A DNA stretch of 64,000 nt from contig JAGKQI010000102.1 in NCBI GenBank assembly GCA_018806915.1, forward strand, positions 620,001 to 684,000, given 5' to 3'. Position numbers and translations under genes: made by a program. The DNA is from Phytophthora colocasiae. Lineage: Eukaryota; Oomycota; Peronosporomycetes; Peronosporales; Peronosporaceae. Shown in pieces: positions 5,109 through 60,601 of this stretch (positions within the stretch are counted from its first letter, which is position 1; each line of letters starts with the position of its first letter). The notes beneath the pieces are model-generated. The model was not told the DNA's origin. It ran no database searches and saw only the letters and a program-made list of their open reading frames with translations.

Positions 5109-5181
5109 TGGTCATACAGGGGCTCGAACCCTGGACCGCAGCGTTATTAGCACTGTGCTCTACCGACTGAGCTATACGACC
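5109..5181 (-). tRNA. tRNA-Ile(AAT), array copy 10
   Basis: Identical in the mature region to copy 1. This is the last copy; its unit is cut at 5479. Confidence 0.95.
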
Positions 5182-5479
5182 GCACAACAACACACACAAC
5201 CACCACGCAAACAACATGCACACACAACACAACCACACAACCACCACACACAACCACGCACGCCAACCCACGCCATTCCGCATCGCCAAACGCTGCTCCA
5301 CGCGCTCATCCTACTCGCTCAACCCACTTCCCACACCATCCAAACTTATCCGCCTTATCCGCGCCCAAACCTATCGCCACGTACGAGGCTCCATGCCGTG
5401 CAAAGCGACACGTGTGAGTCGCGCTTGCTCCCGGGAGAACTCACCCGCCACAGCGCATGGCCTTGCTGCGGTCTACAAG

Positions 5480-15584: not shown

Positions 15585-18500
15585 TCATTGTACAGATGCC
15601 GGTGTGGACGATGAGGGAGCTGCAGCCATCAGCGCTAAGCAGTGCAAGTCTTCGTGTCGTACAGGTGCTTCACTTTCCGCGGGAACGATAATATTTTGCC
15701 GCTGTAAGAAACGCTGGAGACCCTGCGTAGACATCAACGAGCACATGACATCCAGACTCTCATCGGTCTGGGGACTGTACTTCTTCTCATCGCTCTGAGT
15801 TGACGTAGTGGCATTTGATCCAGGTGTTTGAGTTGCATCCTTCTCCTTTTCAGGCTCATCACCCGGAAGCTCCATCGTGTCGCCACCTGTAAAGCCGAAT
15901 CCCTCACATACGAGAGTTGGCCCCGCGTCCGACAAACCCTCGTGCATGGCTGTAATCGTCTTCCGTGCGGACTCCTTCAGCACTAAGTCATCAGACGCCA
16001 ATTGCTCTCGAAGCTGGAAGGCATCCCCTACCGTCAGATGGTCGTTGTTCACTAAAAACTCGACCTGTGCCTTTAGAACCAAGCTTTCTTCTTCCTCTTT
16101 ATCAGTTTCTTCATCAGCAGCCACCAATGTCGAATCATTCGTCGGTACAGTTAGTCCTAACACGGCAATGACTGACGGATACATCGCCGCTTGAGGCTCT
16201 GCAAGTAATGGGGTCGTTTTCTTCGAGTTCAAGTACGAAAAATACGCCATGTAGCTGTTCCACCACGTCTCGCTTGTCACAGGTTCCGATAGCTTCTTTG
16301 ACTCTTCATGCTCCAACTCACGCAGCGCCTGAGCCGCTTCCGTACTCACCCACTCCCAGAACATCCCCCACGTCACGGGTCCCTCAAAATCATCTCCTTC
16401 GATCACGGCCATGGTCCTTTCATACCCGCTCTCAGAGATAGAGCCCATCGCACCATACAACTTCTTCATCAGCTTGATACAGTCTTCTTTTGATATGGTA
16501 CCGGTGGCTTCTGGATCAAACTCGTCAAAGAGAATCCGTGCGCCAAGCTCCAAGCGATCAATATGTTCTTTGGCATTCTGCTGACTCGTGAAATAACCCA
16601 CCGTTGATACAGAATACGCCTTGGATCCTGCAAAGAAACCTAACATACCCCCAACAACGGCTGCACTTGTAGCGGCCACAATACCCACTGGACCAGCCGC
16701 AAGGCCAGCGGTGCCCCACATCCCCAACGCCGAGCCCACGCTATAAGCACCAATACCTGCCCCTGCTGCAGCTGCAGTACGGCTGGCAATAACTTCGCCA
16801 GTTTTCAGCCGAAAGTCTTGCATCATTAACTGCTCTGTGGTTGTCGATAGCACACCTAGAGACTTTCGGTCGGTGTACCGTTTGCGATAGTCGTAGTACT
16901 CCTTTCCAATATCGACGAGAATCGAAGCGATCGTTAGTGGCGCAGCTACAGCTCCACCTAACACAGACGATGTCCGGGCCATTCCATTTGCTAAGGCTAC
17001 ACCACCAGCGGCACGAATTCCACTGTCTAAAGCGCCGTCACCACTCGCAGCGACCAAGCTCTTGAGAGTACCACCCGCAGCGCCAGCGTCCAAGTGATAT
17101 CGGGACACCACACGATCTGCAAGCTTCGTTCGCTTCGACTCTAAGATTTCACTATTCGCAGTTTTTGCCAGGGATGCACCACGCGAAATATTCGCTTTCT
17201 GGATGTAGCCAACCATGAACTTCGGGACTGCGAATCTCACGACTGCGCATGATTCGCTTTCTCTCCAATCGTCCACAGTTCCAAGACCAAATGGGGTGCT
17301 GACAGTTGATCCAGGAGGGAACTCAATCTGTTTGGCAGCAGGGACAATGGCATTTGACGTGTTCAGCTTCTCCTCCATAAGTTTTTCTTCTTCTAACGCA
17401 TCAACACCGAAGTGGAGTGCGACGTCATCCATAATATCAATACAATCGAAAAATTCTTCCTCAGCCATTGCTTCCATTGCGGCATTGTCGTACTCTGTGG
17501 CGCACTCAAAGAACTCTTCGACGAGCTTGTCTTCTTCCACATCTTCCTGCTGTTTCAACGCAACGAGTGCCTGCTGAGCTCCTCGAACGAAAAGCTGTTT
17601 TGCGGTGTTAGCATCCATGCTTCTGCTGGAATCTGTACTGACGAGAGAAGCAGCATCTTTCTTCTTCCTCCGGTCATCACTCTGTTGAAGCAGCAGTTGT
17701 GTTGTATCGACATGCTGCGTGCTGCGATGATCTTCTAGGAGCAGTAGTAAGCAATCTGCAGGCATTTCTCTCACCACTGCTGCCTGCCGCGTCTTCTTAG
17801 ACATCTCCGAGTACTGCGACCACGCGTTCACAATCAATGCGACGCTAGCCCCCACAGCGACAGCACCACCCACCACAGAAACCGTTCGTAGCCCTACACT
17901 CGCACCAGAACTTCCTGGAGTAGGTGCTGCTACATCGCCCGCGATGATTTCTTCTGGTTCCAAGTACAGGATTTGCTCGCTTTGGTCGGCACCAATTCCC
18001 ACCGTCCTCGACACCCGAATCCGGTCCGGTGCAAAAATATTGTCGTGGTTGTTCGGAATAAGCCCACTTCGGACAGAAGATGGGGTACGCAAAGGGTTTA
18101 CTACGGTGGAGCTTGGGGTAGAAAAGCGTGACGTCACCTTGGAGACTGCACCGGAGAGGTTGTCAATCACGTCACGGAACGTTGCAATTGCCTCGTCAAG
18201 AGTCATCCCATTCACCGTGCCATTGCGTACAAACTCGTCCTTCAGGCTCATTGAGTCGTTCAGGTGAGCGTCGTATACTTTTCGCGCTTCAGCATCTGAT
18301 AGCACCTCATAAGATTCCGCCAATAACTTAAAAATCTCCTCCGCGGAAGACTGTTCCTGTGGGTTAGCGGAATTGTTCGCCCACCGATCTGGGTGCCACT
18401 TTAAAGCAAGTTGTTTGTAAGCACTCCGTATTTGCCGCTCCGTCGCATTTCGAGGTACACCAAGACGTTCATAAAAGTCCATGGAGGCATTGATCTGGAT

Positions 18501-19835
18501 GGAATTCGAACGTCGCGCGACGGCATCCACGTAGGCGCTCATCAAGTGCTGCAAGATGGCGTTGCCGGTCAGACTGGAGTTGGCACCGCCGTCCTTATGT
18601 AACTCTTTGCTGATGGCATTCGGGTCTGAGTAAATTGTATAGTCTGCTCCGGTCTTTGACAGGAAAATGTACGTCCCGCACGGAGAATACTGGTAATCAA
18701 TTTCCTTCACGATATTATAGTCGCGGAACTTCTGGAACGTGTTCTGAAGAATGTTCAGGCTCATCGATAAATACGCCGAACTCGCACTAGGAACCGTCCC
18801 GGTATTCGCTGTTGCAGCCAAGTCGACAAAGCGCTGCTGCATTTGAATAGGTAGCAAGTTCACCAGTGTTTTTGTCGCCTTTGTGATCGTGACAAAACGC
18901 TCCGTAGTCTTCGCAGCAATCGCAGTCGACTGTGCCACATTAAGAATGCTCGGTATGCAGTCAAACTCATTGACAAAAGTAATCACACGCTTGTTAAGCT
19001 TCAGTGGTTCAAGAAACGACGCCAAGCCGGTGGATCCAATATACGGAGCTCCAAAACCAACCGCCAGTATGTGTGGAGTACTGCGAAGAATCGTCGCGCG
19101 GTCTTGGTCAGACATATCTTGAAGCATCAATCTGAAGTCCAACTGACCAGTTGATCCAGGGCTATTTTCTTTGCTTTCTTGTTGCTTTTGCTGGTCATAG
19201 TCGCGTTTTTCGAGAAACAGTCGCGTCTTCGTGGGTAAGTGCTGGTACACCAGTTCACAGAACGCCAGTTGCGCAATGCTTCCGCCAATGGAATGACCAC
19301 AGAGCAGCAGCATCTTCTTGACTTGTCGTGCTTGGTAGTGTATGCCTTGCAGGTCCAGTCGTTGCGTTCGTGTCCAGAATGGAGCGTGGATCCTAGCGCC
19401 GCCGAATCTGTGCACGTACGGCTGCGAGAGCAGTACAGTGGATCCCACAACTGTCTGTAATATGTCTGCAGGCTTAGTAGCTCTCACAGCACAGATCACC
19501 GCCAGCTCGGATTGCATAAGCACGTAGTCACGTGTGAACGCCAGCACTGGGAGCTGCAGACTATGCGGCAGCGGTGACTTGCGCACATGTATCTCCAGCT
19601 CTCGGACGGCGCGTTCGTGGGCCTGTTTGTCGGAATCTGAAGGATCTGATTGAGTAGCAGACAATGCTGCACACAGCACTGCAGCGTTCAGTAGTTCCGT
19701 CTCGCTAGATGCCACTGCGTTCGTCTGGTCGCTATCTACAGCCGAGTCGGTCCACCACCACGCGCGTTTGGGGCCATTTTCAGCAGTTTCTTTTGGCTTC
19801 TTGGTCGAACACGATACTGCAGACGTCGATGCCAT
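15585..19835 (-). CDS. Class 3 lipase-like / DnaJ / glycine-rich membrane fusion protein, copy B
   Basis: Single-exon, 1416 residues, paralogue of copy A (7284-11696) over its full length. Lipase elbow GHSIGGS with Ser182, Asp292 in NEFDCIPS, His430 in LQHLMSAYV; J-domain with HPD at 481-483; hydrophobic helix SVVGGAVAVGASVALIVNA near 660-680; DEFFEC-type acidic repeats; KxxxVSTPFGLGTVDDW module; Gly/Ala-rich membrane stretch; EF-hand-like DPEATGTISKED. The Ser/Thr linker after the J-domain is shorter and differs. Both copies keep all three putative catalytic residues and HPD, so both are probably active. They face each other, with three genes in between, which suggests an inverted duplication. 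Confidence 0.85.
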   Translation of the reverse strand: MASTSAVSCSTKKPKETAENGPKRAWWWTDSAVDSDQTNAVASSETELLNAAVLCAALSATQSDPSDSDKQAHERAVRELEIHVRKSPLPHSLQLPVLAFTRDYVLMQSELAVICAVRATKPADILQTVVGSTVLLSQPYVHRFGGARIHAPFWTRTQRLDLQGIHYQARQVKKMLLLCGHSIGGSIAQLAFCELVYQHLPTKTRLFLEKRDYDQQKQQESKENSPGSTGQLDFRLMLQDMSDQDRATILRSTPHILAVGFGAPYIGSTGLASFLEPLKLNKRVITFVNEFDCIPSILNVAQSTAIAAKTTERFVTITKATKTLVNLLPIQMQQRFVDLAATANTGTVPSASSAYLSMSLNILQNTFQKFRDYNIVKEIDYQYSPCGTYIFLSKTGADYTIYSDPNAISKELHKDGGANSSLTGNAILQHLMSAYVDAVARRSNSIQINASMDFYERLGVPRNATERQIRSAYKQLALKWHPDRWANNSANPQEQSSAEEIFKLLAESYEVLSDAEARKVYDAHLNDSMSLKDEFVRNGTVNGMTLDEAIATFRDVIDNLSGAVSKVTSRFSTPSSTVVNPLRTPSSVRSGLIPNNHDNIFAPDRIRVSRTVGIGADQSEQILYLEPEEIIAGDVAAPTPGSSGASVGLRTVSVVGGAVAVGASVALIVNAWSQYSEMSKKTRQAAVVREMPADCLLLLLEDHRSTQHVDTTQLLLQQSDDRRKKKDAASLVSTDSSRSMDANTAKQLFVRGAQQALVALKQQEDVEEDKLVEEFFECATEYDNAAMEAMAEEEFFDCIDIMDDVALHFGVDALEEEKLMEEKLNTSNAIVPAAKQIEFPPGSTVSTPFGLGTVDDWRESESCAVVRFAVPKFMVGYIQKANISRGASLAKTANSEILESKRTKLADRVVSRYHLDAGAAGGTLKSLVAASGDGALDSGIRAAGGVALANGMARTSSVLGGAVAAPLTIASILVDIGKEYYDYRKRYTDRKSLGVLSTTTEQLMMQDFRLKTGEVIASRTAAAAGAGIGAYSVGSALGMWGTAGLAAGPVGIVAATSAAVVGGMLGFFAGSKAYSVSTVGYFTSQQNAKEHIDRLELGARILFDEFDPEATGTISKEDCIKLMKKLYGAMGSISESGYERTMAVIEGDDFEGPVTWGMFWEWVSTEAAQALRELEHEESKKLSEPVTSETWWNSYMAYFSYLNSKKTTPLLAEPQAAMYPSVIAVLGLTVPTNDSTLVAADEETDKEEEESLVLKAQVEFLVNNDHLTVGDAFQLREQLASDDLVLKESARKTITAMHEGLSDAGPTLVCEGFGFTGGDTMELPGDEPEKEKDATQTPGSNATTSTQSDEKKYSPQTDESLDVMCSLMSTQGLQRFLQRQNIIVPAESEAPVRHEDLHCLALMAAAPSSSTPASVQ

Positions 19836-22513: not shown

Positions 22514-22770
22514 TGTCACGTGGGTGACGTTGAGACTTGAGCTCTTGGAGTAAAAAGTAGAACTGAGATTAAGTTGGTCGTCTTAAGCTACTCTCGCCCT
22601 TGGCTACCTCTAACTATGGACAACTAACTCCCTCTTGAACGTCAAGCATATGCAGCAGCCATGAAGGCTGGTAAACAAGCAATGCAGCTGATCTGCTGCT
22701 TCCAGGGCACGTATCGTGCTTTCTGAGCGTGGCACGTGCGTTCTTAGACGGACGTCACTGCCGACTCACA
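22514..22770 (-). repeat. 3' LTR of the young gypsy element
   Basis: 257 bp direct repeat of 26839-27095. The end of the integrase ORF reads into it (stop at 22744). Confidence 0.95.
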
Positions 22771-23637
22771 GTCTCCTCCACGCTTGGCCTTGCAGGGGCG
22801 CACTCGACGGATGTGCACCTTTTCAAGGTAGCGACCCTTGTCAAGGGTAAGCGTCCCATGCTCTTGGACTGCAACGACTTCGAACGGTCCGTCGAATAGA
22901 GGCTGCATTTTTCCTTGGACACCGGCGTCGCGGCGCAACAGCACGTGGTCACCAGGCCGATATGCCCACTCAGAGCGTCCTCGATTTTCGCGTCTGTTAT
23001 GCGCGCGCACTTGGTCCACCTTACGCTGGTGCTCGGCTGCCCAGTCTGTCTTGTGGGCCATGTCGACCAGCATGTCTCGACCAAAGGCGAGCTGAGCCGG
23101 TGAAGCCTTCAGCATTGAGTGGTTGGACGCTCTCATGGCGAACATGGTGTTGTTCAGGAAGTTGGCCCAGTCGTCCGATGTGGCGATGCTTTTGGTCCTC
23201 ATCTTCTCACCGATAACTCGGTGGACCCGTTCGATGACCGCGTTTGCCTGCGGGTTCCTTGTCGTCGTGACAATGCGCTCCACTCCGTAGCTGTCGAGCA
23301 GCTCGGCGAATTCCTTCTTGAACTCGCTACCTCCATCGTGAACGCATCTCGCTGGGCGTGGGTAGCGAGCAAACCAGTAGCGATCCATCAGGTATGCCGC
23401 TTCTGCACTGGTGGCATCGAGTGTAGGAAGGATTTCCACTAGGCGCGTAGCTGTGTCGATAATCGCCAGCTCCCTGAAGCCCTTCCTTCCGTACGGTCCG
23501 ATTGAGTCGACTGCAATTTCGTACCATGGCCACACCTCCACCGTTTTTGGTGGTAGCAATCCATAACGAGTCGTAGGATGCTTAGCCTTCAAGCAGGTGA
23601 TGCACTTGTCGACGAACTTTCGGATATCTGTTTCCAT
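22744..23637 (-). CDS. Gypsy integrase
   Basis: 297 residues, overlapping the upstream ORF by 49 nt in the -1 frame. CITCLKAK gives the CC pair of the HHCC zinc finger. The core has Asp44 (EIAVDSIGPYG), Asp101 (VHDGGSEF) and Glu136 (NAVIERVHR). The C-terminal YRPGDHVLLRRD/GPFEVVAV region is the usual SH3-like GPY/F module; no chromodomain is seen. The stop lies inside the 3' LTR. Confidence 0.92.
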   Translation of the reverse strand: METDIRKFVDKCITCLKAKHPTTRYGLLPPKTVEVWPWYEIAVDSIGPYGRKGFRELAIIDTATRLVEILPTLDATSAEAAYLMDRYWFARYPRPARCVHDGGSEFKKEFAELLDSYGVERIVTTTRNPQANAVIERVHRVIGEKMRTKSIATSDDWANFLNNTMFAMRASNHSMLKASPAQLAFGRDMLVDMAHKTDWAAEHQRKVDQVRAHNRRENRGRSEWAYRPGDHVLLRRDAGVQGKMQPLFDGPFEVVAVQEHGTLTLDKGRYLEKVHIRRVRPCKAKRGGDCESAVTSV

Positions 23638-26600
23638 TCCCAGTGAAACACTTGGGCGATAGTGTTTTTCATTGTGGCGGCGCCGGGGTGGATGAGCAGG
23701 TCGTGGTAGGTCTGCACGAGTTGATGCTGTAGTGGTGTGGGGACCAACACCTTCTTGGTGACGGGGTGCACCTTTACCACCGTGCCCGCTATTTCTTGGA
23801 CCTCGGCCTCCACGAGTGTCGGGTCATCAGCTTGGCTAGCAGCCACAACTCGCATATCCACTGGGCATGATTCATCCACCACTGCCGCTGCAAGTGCCGC
23901 GATTGACACAGGCGCCTCCAGATCGGAGCGATCTTCATCTTTGATCGGCAGCCGTGACAGCGCGTCCGCCACGACGTTGCTGGTACCTGGGATGTAGTGG
24001 AAGATAGGGCCGAACTCCTCAATCTCGAGACGCCACCGCATCATGTGGACGTCGTGAAAAGTCGAGTAGGTCAGATTCAGATGATCGGTATGCAGGTGTA
24101 GTTCTTGACCCAGAAGCATGCTGCGAAACTCTCGCAGCAACAGCAAGATGCTGAGCAGCTCCAGCCGATTGGCCGGGTAGGCGGTCTGAGCATGGTTGCA
24201 CTTCTTGGACCAGTATGCCAGCGGCTTCTTGTCTTGCGTGATCACCGCACCCAATTGCAGCTTCGACGCATCTGTGAACACGTGAAATGGTCGTCTACTA
24301 GCTGGGAAAGCAAGTAGTACGCGCTTCGCTAGCGCAGATTTTACTGCCTCGAACGCCTCGCTTTCGGCGCTTGTCCATTGGAAATTTCTTGTCGGTGACG
24401 TGAGTCGAGTCAACGGTGCAAGTAGTTCAGCTCGACGAGGAATCATGTCGCCGTAAAAATTCACCATTCCGACAAATCGACGTACTTCTCGGCGATTGCG
24501 GGGCGGAGCAATTGCAGTAATCGCTGCGACCTTGTTTGGCAGCGCCGCTATACCGTCTTCAGTCAGCTGGTAGCCGAGATACTCCACCACCTTCGCGCAG
24601 ATCTTGGACTTCTTGCGATGGAGTGTCAGCCCGAAGTCGCGCAGGCGATGGAAAACCACCGCTAGATGCTCTAGATGCTCGGCGAAAGAGCACGATGTAA
24701 CCATTATGTCATCGAGATACACGCGCACGTACTCCAGGTCGCCAAGTTTCTCATCCATGCAAGCTTGGAACTCATCGGGTGCAGTCGACACGCCCATCGG
24801 CAAACGAGCGAAGACAAACTTGCCGAGAGGTGTAGTAATTGCCGTTGCAGCTCTGCTCTTTCGCGCTAACACACGTGTGTAGTAGCTAAGCGGGACATCG
24901 AACACCGACTTGTATTTCGGCTGCTCCACCGAGCGAACCATCTCTTTGACATCCTTCGTCGGGTAGTGGTTGCGCTGCAGGAATTTGTTCAATTTCCGGA
25001 AGTCGCACACGAGGCGCACCGATCCATCCTTCTTCGGTACTACAAATGCTGGTGACGCCCACAAGGATGTTGAATCCCGCACCAAAACACCAATGTCAAT
25101 GAGGCGCTGGATCTCTGCTCGCGTCGCGTCGTAGTAAGCTCGTGGAATCGGAAATGGTCGGCTAGCAATGGGTTTTGCGTCCGGTGTCAACGGAAGCACA
25201 TAGGGCTCCTTTTTCATCGTACCGAGAGAGCCCGTAAACAGATCGGAAAATTCATTGACCAAGTTCATCATCTCTGCCTTCTGCGTAGGCGTAAGCTCAG
25301 CTTCCGAAAACATCGACTCCAATGGAATTTCTTCGGGTTCGTCCACGTTAATCTCGGCACGGCACTCCGCGTCAGACGCAAGCACCGCTGCCTGGAAAGT
25401 CTTGGTTCCATTTGGCTTCGTCATTGGTATTTCGATGCCATCCCACTCGATAACACTACGATCGAAGTCCAGCACCATCCTCTGTTGCTGCATGAAATCG
25501 CGACCCAACATCACTGGGTAGAGGAGTTTTTCAGCCACCCGAAATTCGTGTGAGCACGTCCGCGAATGCGAGAAGTCCAACATCTTGAAGGTTGCTTCCG
25601 CATTGTGTGTGGTCATGCCTGGAGATCCATCAGCATTGAGAAAATTGGCGACCGCGGGTCGCAGATTAATATCCTGCTTTGCCACAGTAGCCGTCGCTCG
25701 GTCCATCGCCGACGAGGTACAGCCCGTATCCAACAGTGCCGTTACTCGGGTTTTTCCCAGCTGAATCTGCACTATCATCTTGGGGTCTTCCTTTCCTGAA
25801 GTCTGAGCTATAGGGGGACTCATCGCCGCCAAGGTGTTGGAATAGTCACTGCTGTAAAAGCGCATCGCTGCAAACTCTTCATCTTGTCGCTTCTTCATTG
25901 CGCTCATCATCGCAGCCATCTCAGCGAGTTGTTCTTGCATAGCCGCCATGGTATTGGGGCCATTGCTGCGTCGGTCGCCATGGTTCGGCTTGTTACGCGG
26001 GCGATAAGCTGGCGACTCGGGGTTCCGGAAACAACGATCGTCATTGTGGTTGTCCATCTTGCAGTAGTTGCAGTACCTTTTTGCTGAGTCGCGGTTACCG
26101 TTGTCTCGCGGGTTATTGCCGCCATCCTTCTTCGCGTTCTTGCGGTTGCTATTGCGTTGTTGCTTGTTATCGCTGCGTGGTTGGCGATTGTTTCGGAGAA
26201 TTGCTTCATCTCGTTCGTTCCGCTCGATCAGCTCGAACTGTGCTTCAATGGACGCCAGGTCCCAGATGCGAGAAATTCTGTTGATCTCGACTTGCCAGTT
26301 TATCGGCATACCTTGTCGGAACATGCGAACCGTATCGGCCTCGGGTACAGACTCATTCTCCCCGTGCTCGAGAAAGGGGATCATGCGGAGGATCATTCGG
26401 AACTCCCCACTGTACTGCCTGACCGTCTTGTTGTAGCCCTTCTTCAGCTGCGTTAGCTCGTCCATCAGTAGGCCTCTCGTGCCCGCTGGACAGTGTCGTG
26501 CAGTGAGATGGCGTAGGCCAGCGATCGCCACGTCTGGGCGAAGGTGTGCTTCGTCTCGCACAAAGTCGTTGAAAAAATTCAAGTCCTCATCGAAGAGCAG

Positions 26601-26792
26601 CAGCTGAATGTCCTCGACAAACGCATACTGGTCCTCTGGGTCTTGTCCGTACTGCATGAACGTTGCGTACTCTTGCAGGCGAAGGATCCACTGCAGCCAT
26701 TCCTTGCTGGTGCCTTGCCTGAAAACTGGTATCTTCTTTTTCACGGTGGTACCGTTTTGCTTCACTTTAGCGAAAGTGATCTCTTCCGCCAT
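23589..26792 (-). CDS. Gypsy gag-protease-reverse transcriptase-RNase H polyprotein
   Basis: The ORF opens at 26816; the second ATG (26792, MAEEITFAKVKQ) is the likelier start. Gag is followed by one zinc knuckle CNYCKMDNHNDDRC (residues 249-262 counted from 26816), an aspartic protease with LLDTGCTSSAMD (Asp363), and a reverse transcriptase with FVVPKKDGSVRLVCDFRKLN and YLDDIM (Asp702-Asp703). RNase H has FTDASKLQLGAV, and the first half of the integrase zinc finger follows (HPGAATMKN ... VFHW). It ends in a different frame from the integrase ORF: the frame breaks between the HH and CC halves of that zinc finger, so a -1 shift or a sequence error is required for a full pol. Confidence 0.92.
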   Translation of the reverse strand: MAEEITFAKVKQNGTTVKKKIPVFRQGTSKEWLQWILRLQEYATFMQYGQDPEDQYAFVEDIQLLLFDEDLNFFNDFVRDEAHLRPDVAIAGLRHLTARHCPAGTRGLLMDELTQLKKGYNKTVRQYSGEFRMILRMIPFLEHGENESVPEADTVRMFRQGMPINWQVEINRISRIWDLASIEAQFELIERNERDEAILRNNRQPRSDNKQQRNSNRKNAKKDGGNNPRDNGNRDSAKRYCNYCKMDNHNDDRCFRNPESPAYRPRNKPNHGDRRSNGPNTMAAMQEQLAEMAAMMSAMKKRQDEEFAAMRFYSSDYSNTLAAMSPPIAQTSGKEDPKMIVQIQLGKTRVTALLDTGCTSSAMDRATATVAKQDINLRPAVANFLNADGSPGMTTHNAEATFKMLDFSHSRTCSHEFRVAEKLLYPVMLGRDFMQQQRMVLDFDRSVIEWDGIEIPMTKPNGTKTFQAAVLASDAECRAEINVDEPEEIPLESMFSEAELTPTQKAEMMNLVNEFSDLFTGSLGTMKKEPYVLPLTPDAKPIASRPFPIPRAYYDATRAEIQRLIDIGVLVRDSTSLWASPAFVVPKKDGSVRLVCDFRKLNKFLQRNHYPTKDVKEMVRSVEQPKYKSVFDVPLSYYTRVLARKSRAATAITTPLGKFVFARLPMGVSTAPDEFQACMDEKLGDLEYVRVYLDDIMVTSCSFAEHLEHLAVVFHRLRDFGLTLHRKKSKICAKVVEYLGYQLTEDGIAALPNKVAAITAIAPPRNRREVRRFVGMVNFYGDMIPRRAELLAPLTRLTSPTRNFQWTSAESEAFEAVKSALAKRVLLAFPASRRPFHVFTDASKLQLGAVITQDKKPLAYWSKKCNHAQTAYPANRLELLSILLLLREFRSMLLGQELHLHTDHLNLTYSTFHDVHMMRWRLEIEEFGPIFHYIPGTSNVVADALSRLPIKDEDRSDLEAPVSIAALAAAVVDESCPVDMRVVAASQADDPTLVEAEVQEIAGTVVKVHPVTKKVLVPTPLQHQLVQTYHDLLIHPGAATMKNTIAQVFHWEWKQISESSSTSASPA

Positions 26793-26838
26793 CTTGTTGT
26801 TTTGTCGTAGCCGCACGCTACGTTTTGATTAATCAAAA

Positions 26839-31208: not shown

Positions 31209-34200
31209 ATGAATTACGCTAATGTATCGTCGCTCTCACTTGGTCAAGAGCTTTGGGCGTTTGTGGAGCGTTTGGCATCGTCTCCAGAGGCTCCAGCGCT
31301 GTCCTCAGAGGCGAGACTGGAGCAAATTCAGCTGGAGGCTCGTGAGTTTCTGGCTAGAAGGCGCGACACGGCGTCGATCAACGGAATTGGCGGGTTTCCA
31401 GCAGCCCCCGCTACTTTAATTACTGTGGACATTGACGTAGAAGGTAAAGCAGAAGCTAAGACTGAAAATGGCGAGCTTGCAGCGATTTCTGAAGCCCAGG
31501 AGAAGATGTACGAGGCCGTGAACGAACGAATCGCTCGTCGCATGATTGACGGCGTGGTACAGCCCATTAGAGGCGCAGCAACAGCTAGCACCAGTGAAGA
31601 CAAGAGCGACACACTATCCGACTGCACAACGACCACCGAGACATCCAGTGTCTACGGGATCCACAACACGTGGGTGGATCTCGCTACACTCTACTCGCTG
31701 CCGTTCGTTATGAGCGACAGCAACCACCGTTTGAAGCCTGTGCCGCCTTTAAATATTTCTCAGGAGCAGAGCCACCTCAACAAGATCTTCCAGGAATGTC
31801 AGCGTGCAGTGCATACGATGCGAGCGGTGGCGACAGTGGATGCACTACGAAAAGTGCTGGATCGTGGCGTTACCGTGCTGCATTTTAGCGGCCACGGCGG
31901 TCGTATTGCTGGACAAAGTCAATATCTGATGTTTGAAGACACACACTGCTCTGGGTTAGCGCACTTGGTGGATTTCGCTACTCTACGGAGTATTTTGAAT
32001 GGCGGCATAAGTTCTCCAGTTGTTGAGGAGGCTGGTGTTAATGATGACAGTGCTTCGTTAGAGATTGCCGAGGGTAGTGCTCTACCAGCTAGTGACAATG
32101 GCTTCCCTTTACGTTCTGCGTCCCAGAACTCATCACGTAGTAATGATGGCCGCCCTGCGATCAACGGTACCCTGAAACTGGTATTTGTTTCGTCTTGTGA
32201 TTCAAGAGATATCGGTGAAGTATTTATCCAAGCTGGCGTTGCGCACGTTGTGTGCGTGCGTTCTGAGGGAAGAGTACTGGACGAGTCGTCAGCTATGTTT
32301 TCATATTCATTTTACCATGCTGCCTTAACTGGCAAAACCGTTCAGCAGGCATTCGAGATCGCGCGTGTTCGTGTGAGTGCTGAGATGCGGATTCCTGATG
32401 GAGAGGGTGATAAGTTTGTACTTTTGGAATCATCACAACTACATGCGGAAACCTGTCCACTCTGGTCTAGCGAAGATCTCCCGCAGACAATTGAAGTGGA
32501 TTTCGACGAGAAGGCTTGCAAGTGCAATGCGTCTACGCAGCAGTTTGTATTTTCCGACATTTCCGTTGGCAAATGGGTAGACGTAAGTCCGTCAAACAAG
32601 TTCGGCAAAACTCTTCCAGCAGTATCGGAGTCGTTTGTGGGCAGAGAGCAGGAGCTGCACATGCTAGCCGAACTAGTCAATACGCGGCGTCTTGTGACAT
32701 TACGTGGTCCTCCTGGTATCGGCAAAAGTACTTTGTCAATCAAGTTGGCCCACTTCCTGTCAGATCGGAATGCTTTCCCTGATGGAGTGGCATTCATCCG
32801 TTTACGTGCTGTGCAATCGCTCGAAGGCATGGAGTCTGCCATCAAGAGCGCCTTGTTCCCCGAAGGTGGTCGCGAGAAGGACATACCGCTTAACCAAGCT
32901 TTGGCGGACCTTAAGGTCTTGCTTGTGATGGACAACATGGAGGATCCAATCAATGCGAACCCAGCTGGGATTCGTGACTTTCTGTTGCAATTGCTGCAAA
33001 ATACGCCGTCCTTGTCTTTTTTAATGACTGCACGACAAGCAATGGGTGGAGGAATCAACGAGTTCGACGAAAAAGTAGTCTCGCTCAATCGTTTGTCGCA
33101 TTACCATGCCGCGGATCTGTTCATCAAGAAGTCCCCACGCGCTCTTCTTGTGTCTGAAATCGGAGATATTGGTACAAACGGCGGAAAATCTTCGTCAACG
33201 TCAATTCTGGAAGCTCTGGTGGCTCACCCATTAATGGCATTCCTTGATGGTCACCCACAAGCTATTTCGCTTTGCGCACCATTGCTTCAGGATCGATCTT
33301 TATCAGAGCTAACGCGAGCTGTGCTATCCCGTGGTGTAAGTGAGTTGCAAGTTGTGGGGTTGGCTGCACATGACCGTAGCGCTTTGAATACTCTCGTGGC
33401 GTCGCTAGATGTGTCCTTAGAACAAGTTCGAATGCATCATGGGCAAGATGCGATCCGGTTCTTTGCGCTTTTAGGGTTGCTTCCTGCTGGAGCTATGCCC
33501 GCAGATTTTAAGAGCCTGTGGGGGAGTAAATGGGAGGGACTGGTCGAAACACTACTTCGATTCTCTTTAATTCAGCGGAATCGAATCCCAGGGTTTGCCC
33601 TAGCTAAGCGGGGCTTACCCAAGCGAAGCGGCATTGGTAGTAGTTCCAGAAGGTCCAGGTCGCGGAACTCGTCCAGTCGTGGGTATGACCAGTCTTTGCT
33701 GGCCGCTTTGAAGGCTTACAGCGATTTCATCAGCAATGCAACTGAGATTTTTAATGCTGAGAGCGCAGACTATGACATCCCGAACGGTAGGGGAGGATCT
33801 CGGCGTGTGCTGAACGACAGGAACATGCTTAACTCGCTCACGCGAAGTGGTCGCGCATCTCGAGTATCGGAACATGTCGAACGTATGGATGACCAGGCAG
33901 AGATCATGGCCGTGTGTGTGTCGTATTCCACCTTCCCGTTCATTGCCAGTTACGCACGCAGTTTGCTCGGCATGTACGATGGAGATGGTGCCAAGAACGA
34001 TGTATTGGAGTCGCTCTGCGTTACAGACCGCGACTTCTTTTTGTATAACACGTCGAGACACTTCCGGAAAGTGAGCTATTGGATCTTCCAACATATCTGC
34101 ACGCTTACAATCGAATCCAGTGCTGCCTACTTGATCTTGGACTTGCACGAATCCAACCTGTGGATGATTCTCGACCTTCATATTCGCATGATCGAAGAGT

Positions 34201-35207
34201 GGCAAGCAGAAAGCAAGGCACCCATACCCAGACCAACTGATGTCACAGAGAATGACAGCGTTGACGGCATCAATTTACGCGAGAAGATTGCTGGCTACGT
34301 GATGGACGTAGCGTGTTACCTTGCCCACTCTCTGTTCCTGTCGGGGCGTCACCGCGGCGCGTGGAACGCTGCTAACAAAGCTTTACACATCGCTAAGCAA
34401 CACAAAAACACCATGTGCCAGGCAAGTATTCGTAAGCTGATGGGCATTCTGCTCACAACTGAGACCAAGTTTGATGAAGCGAAGGCTCAATTTGGCACAG
34501 CGCTTATCCTGTACAAGACGGTGGGGAACAAAATTGGCCAGGCAGCGTCTTTGAGCGGGATCGGCATGATCCACTCCCGCAACGGAAATCTACGGGGAGC
34601 ACATAACTGCTTTACAAAGGCGTTGACACTGTACGAATGGTATAAACATTCTCTTGGCCAACTAAACTGCCACCAGCGTCTTGCAAACTTGGAGAAAAAG
34701 TTACGGGATGGCGACGGAATAGCTCACAAGAATGGGCCGAACTCAGGCCACAGTCACCATTACGCAGCAACCCGTCGATTACAGGGCGATCTCAATCGCA
34801 AACACAACGGCGAGTACATTGTCCGCTGGGTTGGACACGAAACGAGTTTACTACTGGAATTACCATCACCAGCAGTGCGTGTCGAAGATGACAGCCAGTC
34901 CCGTTCTGGACATCTTGTAGCAGCCTCTTCACAAGGATTGCCATTCCCGTTCAGTGTCACCTCAACTCTGAAGAAGGTCAAGCTAAGCGCACCCATGGAG
35001 ACGAAGGAGAAAGATCGGGCTTCTACCACCGCCTCAATGAGTACTTCGACTGTTGCGACAGCAAATAGCACTGCAGCCGAGGGTCAAAGTGACAAGTTGA
35101 AGAACAGTAGTTTTGCCAAGAGGAAAGAGTACGACAGCAGCATCAGGAAATCAGTTGCTGCTGCCATGGCGAACGCCTCACACTCGACCTCACCGCCCGA
35201 ACCGTAG
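31209..35207 (+). CDS. CHAT protease-like / NB-ARC ATPase / TPR protein (NLR-like STAND switch)
   Basis: 1332 residues from ATG 31209 (MNYANVSSLSLGQELWAFV); 28 upstream codons are also open. A caspase-fold CHAT domain at about 170-400 carries the candidate catalytic dyad: His in LHFSGHGGR (His229; His225 also present) and Cys330 in FVSSCDSRDIG, followed by AGVAHVVCVR and FYHAALTGKTVQQAF as in CHAT peptidases. Then comes an NTPase with P-loop GPPGIGKST (500-508), Walker B LKVLLVMDN, the arginine-containing SFLMTARQ, and a GHPQAISLC (GLPL-like) segment. A helical region follows, then about four TPR units at about 1043-1165 (ALHIAKQHKNTMCQ, AKAQFGTALILYKTVGN, AHNCFTKALTLYEWYKH) and a Ser/Thr-rich tail. 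Such domain order marks sensor (TPR), switch (NB-ARC) and effector (CHAT) proteins of immunity or cell death. No membrane segment. Confidence 0.85.
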   Translation: MNYANVSSLSLGQELWAFVERLASSPEAPALSSEARLEQIQLEAREFLARRRDTASINGIGGFPAAPATLITVDIDVEGKAEAKTENGELAAISEAQEKMYEAVNERIARRMIDGVVQPIRGAATASTSEDKSDTLSDCTTTTETSSVYGIHNTWVDLATLYSLPFVMSDSNHRLKPVPPLNISQEQSHLNKIFQECQRAVHTMRAVATVDALRKVLDRGVTVLHFSGHGGRIAGQSQYLMFEDTHCSGLAHLVDFATLRSILNGGISSPVVEEAGVNDDSASLEIAEGSALPASDNGFPLRSASQNSSRSNDGRPAINGTLKLVFVSSCDSRDIGEVFIQAGVAHVVCVRSEGRVLDESSAMFSYSFYHAALTGKTVQQAFEIARVRVSAEMRIPDGEGDKFVLLESSQLHAETCPLWSSEDLPQTIEVDFDEKACKCNASTQQFVFSDISVGKWVDVSPSNKFGKTLPAVSESFVGREQELHMLAELVNTRRLVTLRGPPGIGKSTLSIKLAHFLSDRNAFPDGVAFIRLRAVQSLEGMESAIKSALFPEGGREKDIPLNQALADLKVLLVMDNMEDPINANPAGIRDFLLQLLQNTPSLSFLMTARQAMGGGINEFDEKVVSLNRLSHYHAADLFIKKSPRALLVSEIGDIGTNGGKSSSTSILEALVAHPLMAFLDGHPQAISLCAPLLQDRSLSELTRAVLSRGVSELQVVGLAAHDRSALNTLVASLDVSLEQVRMHHGQDAIRFFALLGLLPAGAMPADFKSLWGSKWEGLVETLLRFSLIQRNRIPGFALAKRGLPKRSGIGSSSRRSRSRNSSSRGYDQSLLAALKAYSDFISNATEIFNAESADYDIPNGRGGSRRVLNDRNMLNSLTRSGRASRVSEHVERMDDQAEIMAVCVSYSTFPFIASYARSLLGMYDGDGAKNDVLESLCVTDRDFFLYNTSRHFRKVSYWIFQHICTLTIESSAAYLILDLHESNLWMILDLHIRMIEEWQAESKAPIPRPTDVTENDSVDGINLREKIAGYVMDVACYLAHSLFLSGRHRGAWNAANKALHIAKQHKNTMCQASIRKLMGILLTTETKFDEAKAQFGTALILYKTVGNKIGQAASLSGIGMIHSRNGNLRGAHNCFTKALTLYEWYKHSLGQLNCHQRLANLEKKLRDGDGIAHKNGPNSGHSHHYAATRRLQGDLNRKHNGEYIVRWVGHETSLLLELPSPAVRVEDDSQSRSGHLVAASSQGLPFPFSVTSTLKKVKLSAPMETKEKDRASTTASMSTSTVATANSTAAEGQSDKLKNSSFAKRKEYDSSIRKSVAAAMANASHSTSPPEP

Positions 35208-42112: not shown

Positions 42113-44491
42113 TCAAATAAAGACGAGTCTGTAATCACCACAGCCAACTTCATCCTTGTACTTGTCGAACATTTCTTGAAGAACGACAAAGTATCTAGAA
42201 TGGACTGCATCCACATCCTTCTGCGTTGGTTTCTCGATATGAGGTACCTCGAGAGGTTCTCCCACAATAATAGGGATATGAATCTTACGCGGGATCGGCA
42301 AAAACGCACGGCCATAAGGGAAAAACGGGAACGGGACTGCGAGCTTCTTCACAAACCAGCGTTGTAACACTGGAGCCTGCACGTTGTCCAGCATTTCTCC
42401 TTCATTAAAGCTGAGAACAGGGACGAGAGGCACTCCGTGTTCAATGGCGAGGCGGATGAAACCTTTGTGATGAGTGTACACCCGCACCTCTTTCCGTCCC
42501 GATCGCTGCTCTATCATCTCGGCCTGACCGCCAGGCACTAGCAATACGCTTTCATTGTGCTGGAGCGCGTAGCTGAAAGCTTGTCGTGTGACTTCCCGTG
42601 ACCCCAGAAATTGAATAATATCTCGGGCTAGAGGCAGTTCATGCATGACACTGGCCGTCAAGATGTGCGCGTGGAAATTCGGGAACAATTTGCGCCATTG
42701 CGCATTGAATTGGAGCCACATAACGGACGTCGGAGTTATTCCGTGTGGGTGAAAACTCAGTACGTACTGCTTATTTGGATTCAGAGGCGCCATTCGAATG
42801 ATGTTGCCACTGAAATATCGCTTGACGGTCTCAATGAGAAAACTGTGTCCAGCAATCCAGCTCATGCGTGCTCGACAACCTGTTTGTGCTGGGTACCCTC
42901 GGTACGTGAACTCGTAGCTATAAGCCACGATAGTAAGAATCAGTACGGGGATGAAAGCCTCCATGTCGTAAATGTAGTGGCGGTATGTAGCGACAGCAGG
43001 AAGGCAGGTGGAGATAATCTGAGGTAAAACGTACTTGACGTGATAACGACTCACATCTTTTCGCAAACCGTTCTTCGAATCTCTAATGTACATGTGTGTC
43101 GCGATCGAGCGAGACATCAGCATTGCACCTTCGACACTCCACGCCATGAGACCATAGTAGAAAACGTCGTATCGGCTAAGATCCGTCGTAATTGTGAACA
43201 GCGCGAAGATGAATATATTGGGGATGAAGTAGATGTTTGCCAATATTCCAATAGTCATCACTCCGAGGCATTCTTCAGCAAAATCGTGCAGACGTTCATA
43301 AAAACTAACACCTTCTTGTGTCGTAACGATCATCGCACTGCTTTTGGGTTCGCCGGCATTATACCCACAAGACTGTCCAGATTTCCGGAAAACCAGCAAA
43401 GACATCATCATTCCAATCTCCGCCACCACAAACAGGGACCCAGCAACAGCCATCGCACCCACAAACAACTCCAGCTCCACAACAACAAGAGAAAGCAGAT
43501 ACAAAACCTGCAACGCCGCGCCAGCACCGAAACATGTCCAAGATACAATCTGGAACATCACAAAACGAGCGCCGCCCATGAATGGTTGATAGAAGTTCCA
43601 GCCATCCTTCGTCGAAAGAACTCCACCCAGACCATACGTGTTGAAAAGAGCCGTCACGAAAAGAGCAAGAGATCCCAATCCAGTTGCCATCGGGTATCCA
43701 CCACTACTACCCGACGGGTGGGGAAATACTCGAGTGTATTCCGAGGCCATGGCCAACAGCGTCGCACCGACCAGCAGCAACATATTGTTGAAGTTGTTGA
43801 GCTGCACCACGAAGCGGTCCTTCCGTCTTTGGCGATTCCGGTCTCGGCGTTTCTCCAACGTCAGCACAGATGAGATGATCAACACCTCAGCGATGAACGC
43901 CGCCACGGCCTGAACGGAACGACTGCCAGGTCTGCAGAACGGCAAGTCGCGCACGTGGTCCGAACTGAAGCAGATGAGCTGCAGCGCTACGAACAAGCCA
44001 TACAGCGTCCACGCCACGCTCTGGTAGATAGCAAACATGTGATTGCGACGATAACGTCTAGCCACCTTGGACAGCAGCGACGACGTGGGCGAATACGACA
44101 ACGCGGGCGAATCGGGAGTTGGTGGAGGCACCGCTGACTTAATCCGTAGAACTCCAGTTGGTGCGCGTGAGATGGAGATCGGGAACCACGCGGCGGCACT
44201 GGTGGCAGGCACAGTCAGTAGTAGGATCCACTGAGCAGCGTAGTGCGTGTCTCCCTGCAGGACGTTGGCCAGCAGGAATCTTGGGTGGTGATGCGTGAGT
44301 TCGGCCAGTGCGAACAGTGTGAAGGCCGCGAAGGAGGTGACGGCCATAGTGAGTAGGAAGACGCTGCGGCTGTTCATTTGCTCGACAGGGGAGGTGGTGA
44401 ATGCTGCATCATCGTCGTGCGTGACGATAGGAGGCAGTTCGCTGCGCTTATGCTGCGTTGGCTGCGTTTGTAAGGTCCTTCCGCGACGCAT
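42113..44491 (-). CDS. DGAT2-family acyltransferase with a long polytopic N-terminal domain, copy A
   Basis: 792 residues, single exon. The C-terminal ~300 residues form the DGAT2/MOGAT domain: YVLSFHPHGITPTSV with HPHG at 581-584, VPGGQAEMIEQ, HHKGFIRLAIEHG and PLVPVLSFNEGE. It transfers fatty acyl-CoA to (di)acylglycerol at the ER, making storage lipid. Ahead of it are about 500 residues with some eight to ten hydrophobic segments (VFLLTMAVTSFAAFTLFALA, WILLLTVPATSAAAWF, AVAAFIAEVLIISSVL, LFVGAMAVAGSLFVVAEI, and others), far more than the one or two of typical DGAT2. Residues about 47-368 are almost identical to copy B at the DNA level; the DGAT domains differ clearly. Tandem, same strand. 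Confidence 0.88.
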   Translation of the reverse strand: MRRGRTLQTQPTQHKRSELPPIVTHDDDAAFTTSPVEQMNSRSVFLLTMAVTSFAAFTLFALAELTHHHPRFLLANVLQGDTHYAAQWILLLTVPATSAAAWFPISISRAPTGVLRIKSAVPPPTPDSPALSYSPTSSLLSKVARRYRRNHMFAIYQSVAWTLYGLFVALQLICFSSDHVRDLPFCRPGSRSVQAVAAFIAEVLIISSVLTLEKRRDRNRQRRKDRFVVQLNNFNNMLLLVGATLLAMASEYTRVFPHPSGSSGGYPMATGLGSLALFVTALFNTYGLGGVLSTKDGWNFYQPFMGGARFVMFQIVSWTCFGAGAALQVLYLLSLVVVELELFVGAMAVAGSLFVVAEIGMMMSLLVFRKSGQSCGYNAGEPKSSAMIVTTQEGVSFYERLHDFAEECLGVMTIGILANIYFIPNIFIFALFTITTDLSRYDVFYYGLMAWSVEGAMLMSRSIATHMYIRDSKNGLRKDVSRYHVKYVLPQIISTCLPAVATYRHYIYDMEAFIPVLILTIVAYSYEFTYRGYPAQTGCRARMSWIAGHSFLIETVKRYFSGNIIRMAPLNPNKQYVLSFHPHGITPTSVMWLQFNAQWRKLFPNFHAHILTASVMHELPLARDIIQFLGSREVTRQAFSYALQHNESVLLVPGGQAEMIEQRSGRKEVRVYTHHKGFIRLAIEHGVPLVPVLSFNEGEMLDNVQAPVLQRWFVKKLAVPFPFFPYGRAFLPIPRKIHIPIIVGEPLEVPHIEKPTQKDVDAVHSRYFVVLQEMFDKYKDEVGCGDYRLVFI
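43388..44353. repeat. 966 bp near-identical tract shared with DGAT2-like copy B (46379-47344)
   Basis: By eye only six substitutions and no indels separate 43388-44353 from 46379-47344. Similarity drops sharply at both ends. The tract covers the N-terminal membrane domain, not the acyltransferase domain. Confidence 0.9.
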
Positions 44492-45049: not shown

Positions 45050-47473
45050 TCAAATCAGGACGAGCTTGTAGTCCCCGCAACCGACTTCATCTTTGTGCTT
45101 GTGGAACATCTCCTGTAGTATGGAGAAATACTTGGCGTGGACCTTGTCGATGTCGTCCTGTGTGGGATGGTCAATGTGGGGCACTTCAAGAGGTTCACCA
45201 ACTACGATGGGTATGTCAACTTTGCGGGGGATCGGCAGCATTCCGCGGCCGTATGGGAAGTACGGGAACGGGAAAGCAAGCTTCTTGACGAACCAGCGCT
45301 GGAGCATGGGGGCTTGAACATTGTCCATCATCTCGCCCTCCTTGAAACTCAACACGGGTACAAGCGGTACGCCGTGTTCGATTGCAAGACGAATGAAACC
45401 TTTGTGGTGGGTGTATATGCGCACCTCTTTCTTTGCTGACTGCTGCTGTAGCATCTCGGCTTGTCCACCGGGCACAAGCAATACACTCTCCTTCTGCTGT
45501 AACGTATGCGCAAATGCTGTTCGTGTAACTTCACGCGAACCGTAAAAGTGAAGCACATCTCGGGCGAGCGGAATTTGATGAAGAATACTCGCCGTCAAGA
45601 TATGCGCATAGAAATTCGGGAACAGTTCTCGCCATTGAGCTGTGAACTGGAGCCACATGACCGAGATGGGCATAATGCCGTGCGGGTGGAAGCTTAACAC
45701 GTACTGCTTCTTGGGGTCAAGGGGGGCTGTACGAATAATCGTCCCGCTGAAATATTTCTTGACCGTATCAACAAGGAAGCTGCGGCCGGTAATCCAACTA
45801 GCTCGCTCGCGACATCCAGTTTGCTGTGGGTTTCCGCGGTACGTGAACTCATAAATGTAAATGAAGATGGTAAGGACAAGCACCGGAACAAACGCTTCCA
45901 TGTCGTAGATGTAGTGGCGGTACGTGATCACAGCAGGCAGGCACGCGGTAATGATCTGGGGCAACACATACTTCACATGGTATCGATTGACTTCTTTCAG
46001 CAAGCCATTCTTCGAGTCTTTCAAGTACAAGTGAGTCGCGATTGAGCGCGATACTACCGTGATAAACTCGACACCAGCAGCCATAAACCCGTAGAAGGCA
46101 ACACCAGTAGGACTTAAGTTAGTCGTGGCAGCGAAAAATACGAATACCAGCGTATTCGGAATCCACTGAATGTTGGCCAAAACTCCGACGACAAGGACGC
46201 CCAGGCACTCGTCGGCAAAGTCGCGCATCCTTTCATGAAAGCTCAAAATGGGAACGTGCAAGGTAGCTATCGCTAATTCATCAATCGTTTCCACCGAAGT
46301 AGTATCCTTTTCGATGCTCTTCGTTCCACCAGCCAAATGAATATCACTTGTGCATTTAGGCGACTGGCCGGTCTTCCTGAAAACCAGCAAAGACATCATC
46401 ATTCCAATCTCCGCCACCACAAACAGGGACCCAGCAACAGCCATCGCACCCACAAACAACTCCAGCTCCACAACAACAAGAGAAAGCAGATACAAAACCT
46501 GCAACGCCGCGCCAGCACCGAAACATGTCCAAGATACAATCTGGAACATCACAAAACGAGCACCGCCCATGAATGGCTGATAGAAGTTCCAGCCATCCTT
46601 TGTCGAAAGAACTCCACCCAGACCATACGTGTTGAAAAGAGCCGTCACGAAAAGAGCAAGAGATCCCAATCCAGTTGCCATCGGGTATCCACCACTACTA
46701 CCCGACGGGTGGGGAAATACTCGAGTGTATTCCGAGGCCATGGCCAACAGCGTCGCACCGACCAGCAGCAACATATTGTTGAAGTTGTTGAGCTGCACCA
46801 CGAAGCGGTCCTTCCGTCTTTGGCGATTCCGGTCTCGACGTTTCTCCAACGTCAGCACAGATGAGATGATCAACACCTCAGCGATGAACGCCGCCACGGC
46901 CTGAACGGAACGACTGCCAGGTCTGCAGAACGGCAACTCGCGCACGTGGTCCGAACTGAAGCAGATGAGCTGCAGCGCTACGAACAAGCCATACAGCGTC
47001 CACGCCACGCTCTGGTAGATAGCAAACATGTGATTGCGACGATAACGTCTAGCCACCTTGGACAGCAGCGACGACGTGGGCGAATACGACAACGCGGGCG
47101 AATCGGGAGTTGGTGGAGGCACCGCTGACTTAATCCGTAGAACTCCAGTTGGTGCGTGTGAGATGGAGATCGGGAACCACGCGGCGGCACTGGTGGCAGG
47201 CACAGTCAGTAGTAGGATCCACTGAGCAGCGTAGTGCGTGTCTCCCTGCAGGACGTTGGCCAGCAGGAATCTTGGGTGGTGATGCGTGAGTTCGGCCAGT
47301 GCGAACAGTGTGAAGGCCGCGAAGGAGGTGACGGCCATAGTGAGCAAGAAAATGCTACGTGCAGTCATCTGCTCCACCGGGACAGCGGAGAAGGCCTCGT
47401 CTTCATCTTCCGGCTCAACAATGAGCCTCGGTAGGTCCTTCGGTTTACGGCGTGTGAGCTGCGGCGCTTGCAT
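45050..47473 (-). CDS. DGAT2-family acyltransferase with a long polytopic N-terminal domain, copy B
   Basis: 807 residues from ATG 47473 (MQAPQLTRRKPKDLPRL), chosen because it aligns with the start of copy A; the frame stays open to 47686. HPHG at 596-599 (LSFHPHGIMPISVMW), VPGGQAEMLQQQS, HHKGFIRLAIEHGVPLVPVL, FPYFPYGRGMLPIPRKVDIP and the C-terminal CGDYKLVLI shared with copy A. The linker after the shared tract is longer than in copy A (CTSDIHLAGGTKSIEKD) and unrelated to it. The two enzymes probably differ in acyl donor or acceptor choice, since the membrane part is nearly identical and the catalytic part has diverged. Confidence 0.88.
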   Translation of the reverse strand: MQAPQLTRRKPKDLPRLIVEPEDEDEAFSAVPVEQMTARSIFLLTMAVTSFAAFTLFALAELTHHHPRFLLANVLQGDTHYAAQWILLLTVPATSAAAWFPISISHAPTGVLRIKSAVPPPTPDSPALSYSPTSSLLSKVARRYRRNHMFAIYQSVAWTLYGLFVALQLICFSSDHVRELPFCRPGSRSVQAVAAFIAEVLIISSVLTLEKRRDRNRQRRKDRFVVQLNNFNNMLLLVGATLLAMASEYTRVFPHPSGSSGGYPMATGLGSLALFVTALFNTYGLGGVLSTKDGWNFYQPFMGGARFVMFQIVSWTCFGAGAALQVLYLLSLVVVELELFVGAMAVAGSLFVVAEIGMMMSLLVFRKTGQSPKCTSDIHLAGGTKSIEKDTTSVETIDELAIATLHVPILSFHERMRDFADECLGVLVVGVLANIQWIPNTLVFVFFAATTNLSPTGVAFYGFMAAGVEFITVVSRSIATHLYLKDSKNGLLKEVNRYHVKYVLPQIITACLPAVITYRHYIYDMEAFVPVLVLTIFIYIYEFTYRGNPQQTGCRERASWITGRSFLVDTVKKYFSGTIIRTAPLDPKKQYVLSFHPHGIMPISVMWLQFTAQWRELFPNFYAHILTASILHQIPLARDVLHFYGSREVTRTAFAHTLQQKESVLLVPGGQAEMLQQQSAKKEVRIYTHHKGFIRLAIEHGVPLVPVLSFKEGEMMDNVQAPMLQRWFVKKLAFPFPYFPYGRGMLPIPRKVDIPIVVGEPLEVPHIDHPTQDDIDKVHAKYFSILQEMFHKHKDEVGCGDYKLVLI
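46379..47344. repeat. 966 bp near-identical tract shared with DGAT2-like copy A
   Basis: Partner of 43388-44353, offset 2991 bp. See that entry for the comparison. Confidence 0.9.
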
Positions 47474-48237
47474 GGGCCTCGCGTGAATTGACTTGTTCAG
47501 TGAGTTGCAACTTGCAGAATGACTCGAATGGTGCAGAGGTTTCATCCGCCATGAACGGCGTAATCGCGAGCGACGGTGTGAGCTTCTACGTAAACGCCAC
47601 ACAAGGTGGGACCAAATCATAATCGCTTCAGTTTTGGCTACGGGTTGCAGACCTACGCTATCGACATTGACATCTAGCAACAACACAATATAATAACTTC
47701 GCGCGAATGCCCTGGGCTAGAACGTAGATAGAGTTACCGGAATGCAGCGGCAAAATGCCAAAAATGGCTCTTCCATGGTGAGCCATTTCAGTCCTATGTG
47801 GCGTAAACATGGATGACACTTCAATGAGCAACTTGAGCACGAGCAACTTGAGTCAAGTTACTTGACCACGAACTACGGTAGTTATTCCAAAGTGTCCATC
47901 GAGGGATAGCCAAATATATGCTTGTTGAGGCACGGGGTAGTAGAGACTCTACTAGAGAGCAGCACAACGTACCGGCTTTCCAAGCGTGCGTGGAGCTTTA
48001 AAAGGCCATGCTTACGCTTGGGTTTAGCGATGGCGTGCTCCGTGCACACGTACCGGCGGTCTTGTTTTTCTCATTACCATAATCATGGATGAATTAAACC
48101 TGATAACAGGGCAGACAGTTAAGTTGTCGGGGGCGCTTCTCGACAGAACAATTGGGTGTCGGTACGGCTCGATTATTTACCTATCTGGTCAACACACAAC
48201 AACGCTGACAAGATATCATTACAACACCGAGCCAGAC
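47474..48237. other. Upstream region of acyltransferase copy B
   Basis: 764 bp. Contains GAGCAACTTGAG twice (47826-47837, 47841-47852) followed at once by TCAAGTTACTTGA, a direct repeat running into an imperfect inverted one. No supported gene: the open frames here are antisense to the last Miro exon or lack motifs. Confidence 0.45.
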
Positions 48238-60544: not shown

Positions 60545-60601
60545 TCTGGTAGCACTAGTAGTCAATCCAACTCCTGAGTTGAAGACTGTTTCTCTGTGAG
60601 A

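Follow-up and report, generated by a model that had tools for sequence, protein, structure and literature searches.

Among the closest described systems are the CHAT-NLRs of fungi and the CHAT proteases used in bacterial defence, which are described in passages of four papers (PMC10197012, PMC12881547, PMC9815663, PMC10907252). In those passages the fungal proteins carry an N-terminal CHAT domain, a STAND switch and repeats, and passages of a further paper (PMC4986451) depict fungal non-self NLRs as numerous, many of them with near-identical tetratricopeptide repeats (TPRs) that vary in number and are under positive selection. Here we describe a gene with a comparable arrangement in the oomycete Phytophthora colocasiae, located in a 64,000-nucleotide stretch (GenBank assembly GCA_018806915.1, contig JAGKQI010000102.1, positions 620,001 to 684,000, forward strand; hereafter, the window). 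Among the titles listed in our literature searches, which lay mostly outside subscription literature, none treats an oomycete CHAT protein or describes the oomycete family. The main text of a study of Phytophthora domain fusions (PMC2705460) contains none of the terms CHAT, NACHT, NB-ARC, FHA, tetratricopeptide or caspase.

The gene (31209..35207, plus strand) is a single open frame encoding 1332 aa, with an ATG at 31209, a TAG at 35207 and no internal stops, and its initial Met aligns with that of the nearest orthologues. When the protein was searched against Pfam under the curated cut-offs, CHAT (residues 175–395), AAA_16 (476–572), NACHT (494–639) and TPR_12 (1074–1143) all scored above threshold. 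A sequence-only reading of the window had proposed that CHAT, a nucleotide-binding switch and C-terminal TPRs are combined in one frame, and Pfam, the predicted fold and the motifs bear this out. The architecture is unlikely to be a chance product, since near-full-length orthologue models outside Saprolegniales align over 92–100% of the protein at 53–91% identity, and those from Saprolegnia and Aphanomyces over 47–90% at 37–38%. The closest named orthologues are from Phytophthora oleae (91%) and, as a partial model, P. capsici (92%). The alignments used below, A1 (22 rows), A2 (40) and A4 (48), are selections among the homologue-search matches; partial gene models, such as P0011, for which no Pfam CHAT is listed, were excluded from A4. 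Every NCBIfam match was far below its cut-off, and the PADLOC matches of the oomycete protein (P0001), to TPR and mad8, were all weak.

The CHAT domain (residues ~154–412; 31668..32444, plus strand) matches PF12770 with an E-value of 6.4e-10 (39.4 bits against a cut-off of 24) and is predicted to adopt a caspase/separase fold with a His and a Cys at strand ends. His229 (31893..31895, in LHFSGHG), the predicted catalytic His, follows strand 223–227, and Cys330 (32196..32198, in VFVSSCDS), the predicted catalytic Cys, follows strand 324–327. Both residues, whose indices were checked, are retained in all 48 rows of A4, which were chosen across paralogues and protists; one of the 40 rows of A2 (P0036) is gapped at Cys330. 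Neither of the outcomes that the sequence-only reading had named as refuting it occurred: a caspase fold is predicted, and the pair is kept among orthologues. A variable insert within the domain (residues 269–320; 32013..32168, plus strand) is modelled mostly with low confidence and is missing from the Saprolegniales rows of A1. Ahead of the domain, a Ser/Asp/Thr-rich motif, [KR]SDxxSD (within residues 131–145; 31599..31643, plus strand), is present in every one of the 20 oomycete rows of A1 and might, at a guess, be a phospho-site.

The following part (residues ~471–795; 32619..33593, plus strand) is assigned by Pfam, the model and structure matches to a STAND ATPase; it includes helical and winged-helix parts, sub-domain names that are our reading of the model. 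The alignment contains a P-loop, GPPGIGKS (500–507; 32706..32729, plus strand), a hydrophobic Walker B strand, VLLVMDN (570–576; 32916..32936, plus strand), which ends in D575-N576 rather than in two Asp residues, and a GxP motif, GHPQ (681–684; 33249..33260, plus strand); together with the winged helix, these are the broad hallmarks of STAND proteins. At the site which we take, by the motif's usual register, to be equivalent to MHD (STFPFI, 907–912; 33927..33944, plus strand), residues 908–911 are TFPF or similar, with a His in none of 22 rows. The AAA_16 score is 35.3 bits against a cut-off of 32.6, and that of NACHT (PF05729) is lower, 29.7 against 26.7. For NB-ARC (PF00931) the score of 14.2 bits falls short of the 23.5 required, and a Pfam search of the whole genome yielded no NB-ARC match, although ciliate-like relatives of the protein do pass this cut-off. 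Therefore, of the complete NB-ARC module claimed from the sequence, the P-loop, the DN-ending Walker B and the STAND assignment stand, whereas the NB-ARC label in the strict sense was rejected on the score and the missing His.

It might be argued that the protein is a non-cleaving scaffold which has kept its CHAT and STAND folds and works through binding. The D-N at the end of Walker B, changed further in three Aphanomyces rows, would suit such a role, but the retention of His and Cys in all 48 rows chosen across paralogues and protists is more than a scaffold requires, and we regard this explanation as improbable.

The best PDB profile match of the STAND part is AfsR, at 6.2e-13 over its full chain, followed by the plant NLR Sr35 (about 3e-6) and PH0952 (1.7e-5). 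AfsR has only a modest lead as the nearest ATPase: the full-chain value takes in TPR stretches, and on the ATPase stretch by itself AfsR reaches 1.3e-7 against 3.6e-6 for Sr35. Foldseek with the whole model ranked PH0952 first (9.3e-10), with CED-4, Dark and a wheat resistosome lower; since the model has a pTM of 0.54, domain packing was not interpreted. Both AfsR (PDB 8k60, 8jke), a transcription regulator, and PH0952 (6mfv) are STAND ATPases with TPRs; for the STAND and TPR parts they rank first in the PDB, AfsR by profile and PH0952 by Foldseek, but they are devoid of CHAT. Conversely, going in part by PDB titles, the SAVED-CHAT filament protease (PDB 8tl0) is switched by SAVED and Craspase TPR-CHAT/Csx29 within a CRISPR RNA complex, and neither is known to have a STAND module like that of the oomycete protein.

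The TPR arm (residues 1028–1165; 34290..34703, plus strand), also foreseen in the sequence-only reading, is delineated by Pfam (TPR_12, E 1.5e-7), conservation and the predicted model, in which it forms helix pairs of ~40 residues each. Beyond it lie a conserved motif, HYAAxRRLQGDLN..RWVGHExSLLLE (1183–1218; 34755..34862, plus strand), and, within an otherwise variable tail, SSFA[KR]R[KR]xYD (1300–1309; 35106..35135, plus strand), found in all 20 oomycete rows of A1 (V for A in one). Among nine Phytophthora and Nothophytophthora sequences (36 pairs) the TPR arm has a mean identity of 0.96, the C-terminal motif 0.97 and the part after the nucleotide-binding domain 0.96, compared with 0.93 for that domain and 0.92–0.95 for CHAT; the N-terminus and the tail reach 0.67 and 0.65, respectively. 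Four 40-residue TPR units share at most 9 of 40 residues pairwise, and no DNA repeats were found. Since the arm and the C-terminal motif are conserved and the units dissimilar, unlike in fungal non-self NLRs, the sensor probably reads something conserved.

In order to determine copy number, the genome (92.5 Mb in 105 contigs; gene counts are lower bounds) was searched, revealing one intact copy of the CHAT-STAND-TPR gene. Two degenerate partial copies with stop codons correspond to residues ~604–1007 (L101, C58:3186609-3187627) and ~918–997 (L102, C26:131998-132242), and two paralogues carry other sensors. The self/non-self receptor envisaged in the sequence-only reading, that is, an incompatibility protein of the kind found in fungi, fares poorly against these data: where passages of PMC4986451 describe numerous NLRs, many with near-identical variable repeats, the oomycete gene has a single intact copy, dissimilar repeat units and a sensor as conserved as any other part, and we consider such a role very improbable. 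It has the look of a single long-standing gene that changes slowly, not of an immune receptor under rapid evolution. Stramenopile NTPase-TPR families, which likewise combine an NTPase with TPRs, are described as expanded and exon-shuffled; CHAT is not mentioned in the passages on them, which were not retrieved with CHAT as a search term.

One of the two paralogues is an FHA-CHAT-STAND gene (L001:256-2895, contig C50, plus strand), also present in downy mildews and Albugo. The other, a CHAT-STAND-SH2 gene (L002/L100; L100:2030-5040, contig C10, minus strand), consists of two overlapping open frames and probably contains one intron. Both share the CHAT-STAND core and dyad motifs with the TPR protein but have, in place of the TPRs, an FHA domain or a STAT-like SH2 region; for the latter, the PDB search gives STAT6 as a match (E 1.2e-8), and Pfam SH2 is present in the relatives P0223 and P0224. 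FHA and SH2 domains bind phosphopeptides, and therefore at least two CHAT-STAND members may be phosphorylation-gated. In total, Pfam searches of the genome detected at least three CHAT-STAND genes and at least two other NACHT-like loci, which, for this genome, fits the earlier remark that few immunity-type switches are reported in oomycetes.

Orthologues, some of them partial models, are named in 26 oomycete species: 13 of Phytophthora, one of Nothophytophthora, three of Pythium, one of Lagenidium, two each of Globisporangium and Saprolegnia, and four of Aphanomyces. The CHAT-STAND family extends beyond oomycetes: its further relatives include P0110, metagenome proteins and a protein of the ciliate Moneuplotes crassus (P0113). 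P0073, P0098, P0221, P0222, P0225, P0227 and P0228 are likewise CHAT or CHAT-STAND proteins; Pfam finds LRR in P0073 and both SPRY and SAM in P0225, and others look LRR-like by eye. In a tree of 44 selected rows (L001, L002, L018 and L019 included), the root of which is not known, the oomycete TPR clade received support of 100/100, with Saprolegnia and Aphanomyces separate from the others. Grouped with this clade at 95/92 are P0110, P0044 and six ciliate-like rows, of which one is named, and three bacterial rows fall, less firmly, among the other subfamilies. Several branches are long, the residue composition of 11 rows is unusual, and the joins L019p/P0229 and P0225/P0231 are flagged as possibly false.

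Two Anaerolineae metagenome-assembled genomes encode EAD7-CHAT-STAND-TPR proteins (L018:5701-8841 and L019:30-3584), which begin with EAD7 (PF19960; E 2.3e-15 and 2.9e-9). The CHAT-STAND-TPR order in both is that of the oomycete protein, to which the L018 protein is 34% identical over 643 columns; P0229 has the same order, and its His/Cys, P-loop and GxP align with those of the oomycete protein. In the latter, the N-terminal effector-associated domain (EAD) of the bacterial conflict proteins was not detected: no EAD, EAD7 included, occurs among its Pfam matches up to an E-value of 10. A scan of genome contigs with one P-loop pattern gave at least two loci with CHAT upstream of the P-loop (motif check, 80 loci kept), a lower bound on bacterial CHAT-STAND proteins. 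PADLOC gave only weak matches to the bacterial proteins (TPR, mad8 and a few others), and a probable transposase and metabolic genes were noticed by eye near the L018 gene. With the tree unrooted, the direction of transfer can be no more than inferred.

The distribution within oomycetes appears uneven. No Peronospora, Hyaloperonospora, Peronosclerospora or Albugo was named among the 105 matches, or the 120 listed of 283, to the TPR-type protein. The search with the FHA paralogue names eight such species (Peronospora belbahrii, P. destructor and P. effusa; Hyaloperonospora arabidopsidis and H. brassicae; Peronosclerospora sorghi; Albugo laibachii and A. candida), and their proteins are therefore present in the database searched. 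A named TPR-type match exists for 14 of 16 other FHA-bearing species versus none of these eight (Fisher p 6e-5, the species not being independent and the eight falling in two lineages). Many matches lack a species name, 90% clusters hide members, split gene models may conceal the gene, and Bremia and Plasmopara are in neither match list. A link between loss and lifestyle is weakened by Phytophthora aleatoria and Globisporangium polare, also without a named TPR-type match, and by Achlya hypogyna, for which only SAM- and SH2-type proteins (P0047, P0224) were named; none of the three is known to be an obligate biotroph.

Taken together, the data support an oomycete protein that joins a STAND switch and TPRs to a CHAT domain whose fold is predicted to be that of a caspase and whose His/Cys pair is intact. 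We consider it fairly probable that the protein acts as a caspase-like protease switch contained in one chain and gated by ATP. It is encoded by an old gene of many oomycetes, is akin to bacterial EAD7-CHAT-STAND-TPR proteins and does not look like a diversifying receptor. The folds, dyad, motifs and conservation have computational support; ATP gating, oligomerisation, protease activation and a conserved ligand are inferred. The switch would work as follows. At rest, the STAND module would keep the chain closed. The TPR arm and the C-terminal motif, given their conservation, might bind a single ligand, partner or internal state that is itself conserved; ATP binding would then open and oligomerise the STAND module, as in the homologous CED-4, Dark and resistosomes. 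Oligomerisation would gather the CHAT domains, whereupon His229 and Cys330, predicted from the fold and conservation, could cut a substrate; such a cut might end in cell death, in defence or in a step of development.

The protein could instead be a protease that regulates development or the cell cycle through its STAND switch and takes no part in immunity or cell death; HetF and separase are regulatory proteases of this kind. The single intact copy, the strong conservation and the match to AfsR, a regulator, agree with this, as do the neighbouring genes in the window, which look housekeeping in a Pfam scan (methyltransferase, Rad17-like, M1 peptidase and diacylglycerol acyltransferase). On the other hand, the missing named matches in the eight downy mildew and Albugo species suggest that the gene is perhaps dispensable, and the bacterial relatives carry a domain that Pfam names effector-associated; we hold a purely regulatory role to be a serious but rather unlikely alternative to the protease switch proposed above.

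No gasdermin was found in the Pfam scan of 17 open reading frames of the window (15 of at least 280 aa and two shorter), a scan that leaves aside short or split genes, nor in a genome search with PF04598, in which no positive control matched either. Peptidase_C14 (PF00656; caspases and metacaspases) had no genome match in a search in which 1 of 14 controls matched and which divergent or intron-split genes could escape, whereas Peptidase_C50 (separase) did match. Elsewhere in the window, positions 1–5300 (minus strand) contain ten tRNA-Ile (AAT) genes, one per ~565-base tandem unit; an inverted pair of large open reading frames (7284–11696, plus; 15585–19835, minus) combines Lipase_3 and DnaJ in one frame; and tandem diacylglycerol acyltransferase frames with long N-terminal parts lie at 42113–44491 and 45050–47686 (minus). 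Retrotransposon pieces lie at 22744–26816 (minus) and 60596–63420 (plus), with an integrase core, reverse transcriptase and RNase H as well as a gag/Ty3 capsid and an aspartyl protease.

To our knowledge, few parts of regulated proteolysis or cell death are known in oomycetes, and a STAND switch that is conserved and has a predicted caspase fold offers a concrete candidate for such a part. The protein connects EAD-bearing bacterial CHAT proteins to a group of eukaryotes other than fungi. A more speculative proposal, which we put forward only tentatively, is that SAR protists, oomycetes among them, and bacteria share a small ancient one-chain 'caspase plus apoptosome' family, in which a CHAT-STAND core is joined to varied sensors: TPR, an FHA phosphothreonine reader, a STAT-like SH2 phosphotyrosine reader, SAM or LRR. 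The TPR member would be a fixed intracellular guard, lost alongside obligate biotrophy in two separate lineages, the downy mildews and Albugo, and its conserved tail tyrosine could even be a ligand of the SH2 sister; that Achlya hypogyna, Globisporangium polare and Phytophthora aleatoria are likewise without a named match makes this proposal less likely. The apparent absence from downy mildews and Albugo suggests a connection of an intracellular switch with lifestyle that can be put to the test.

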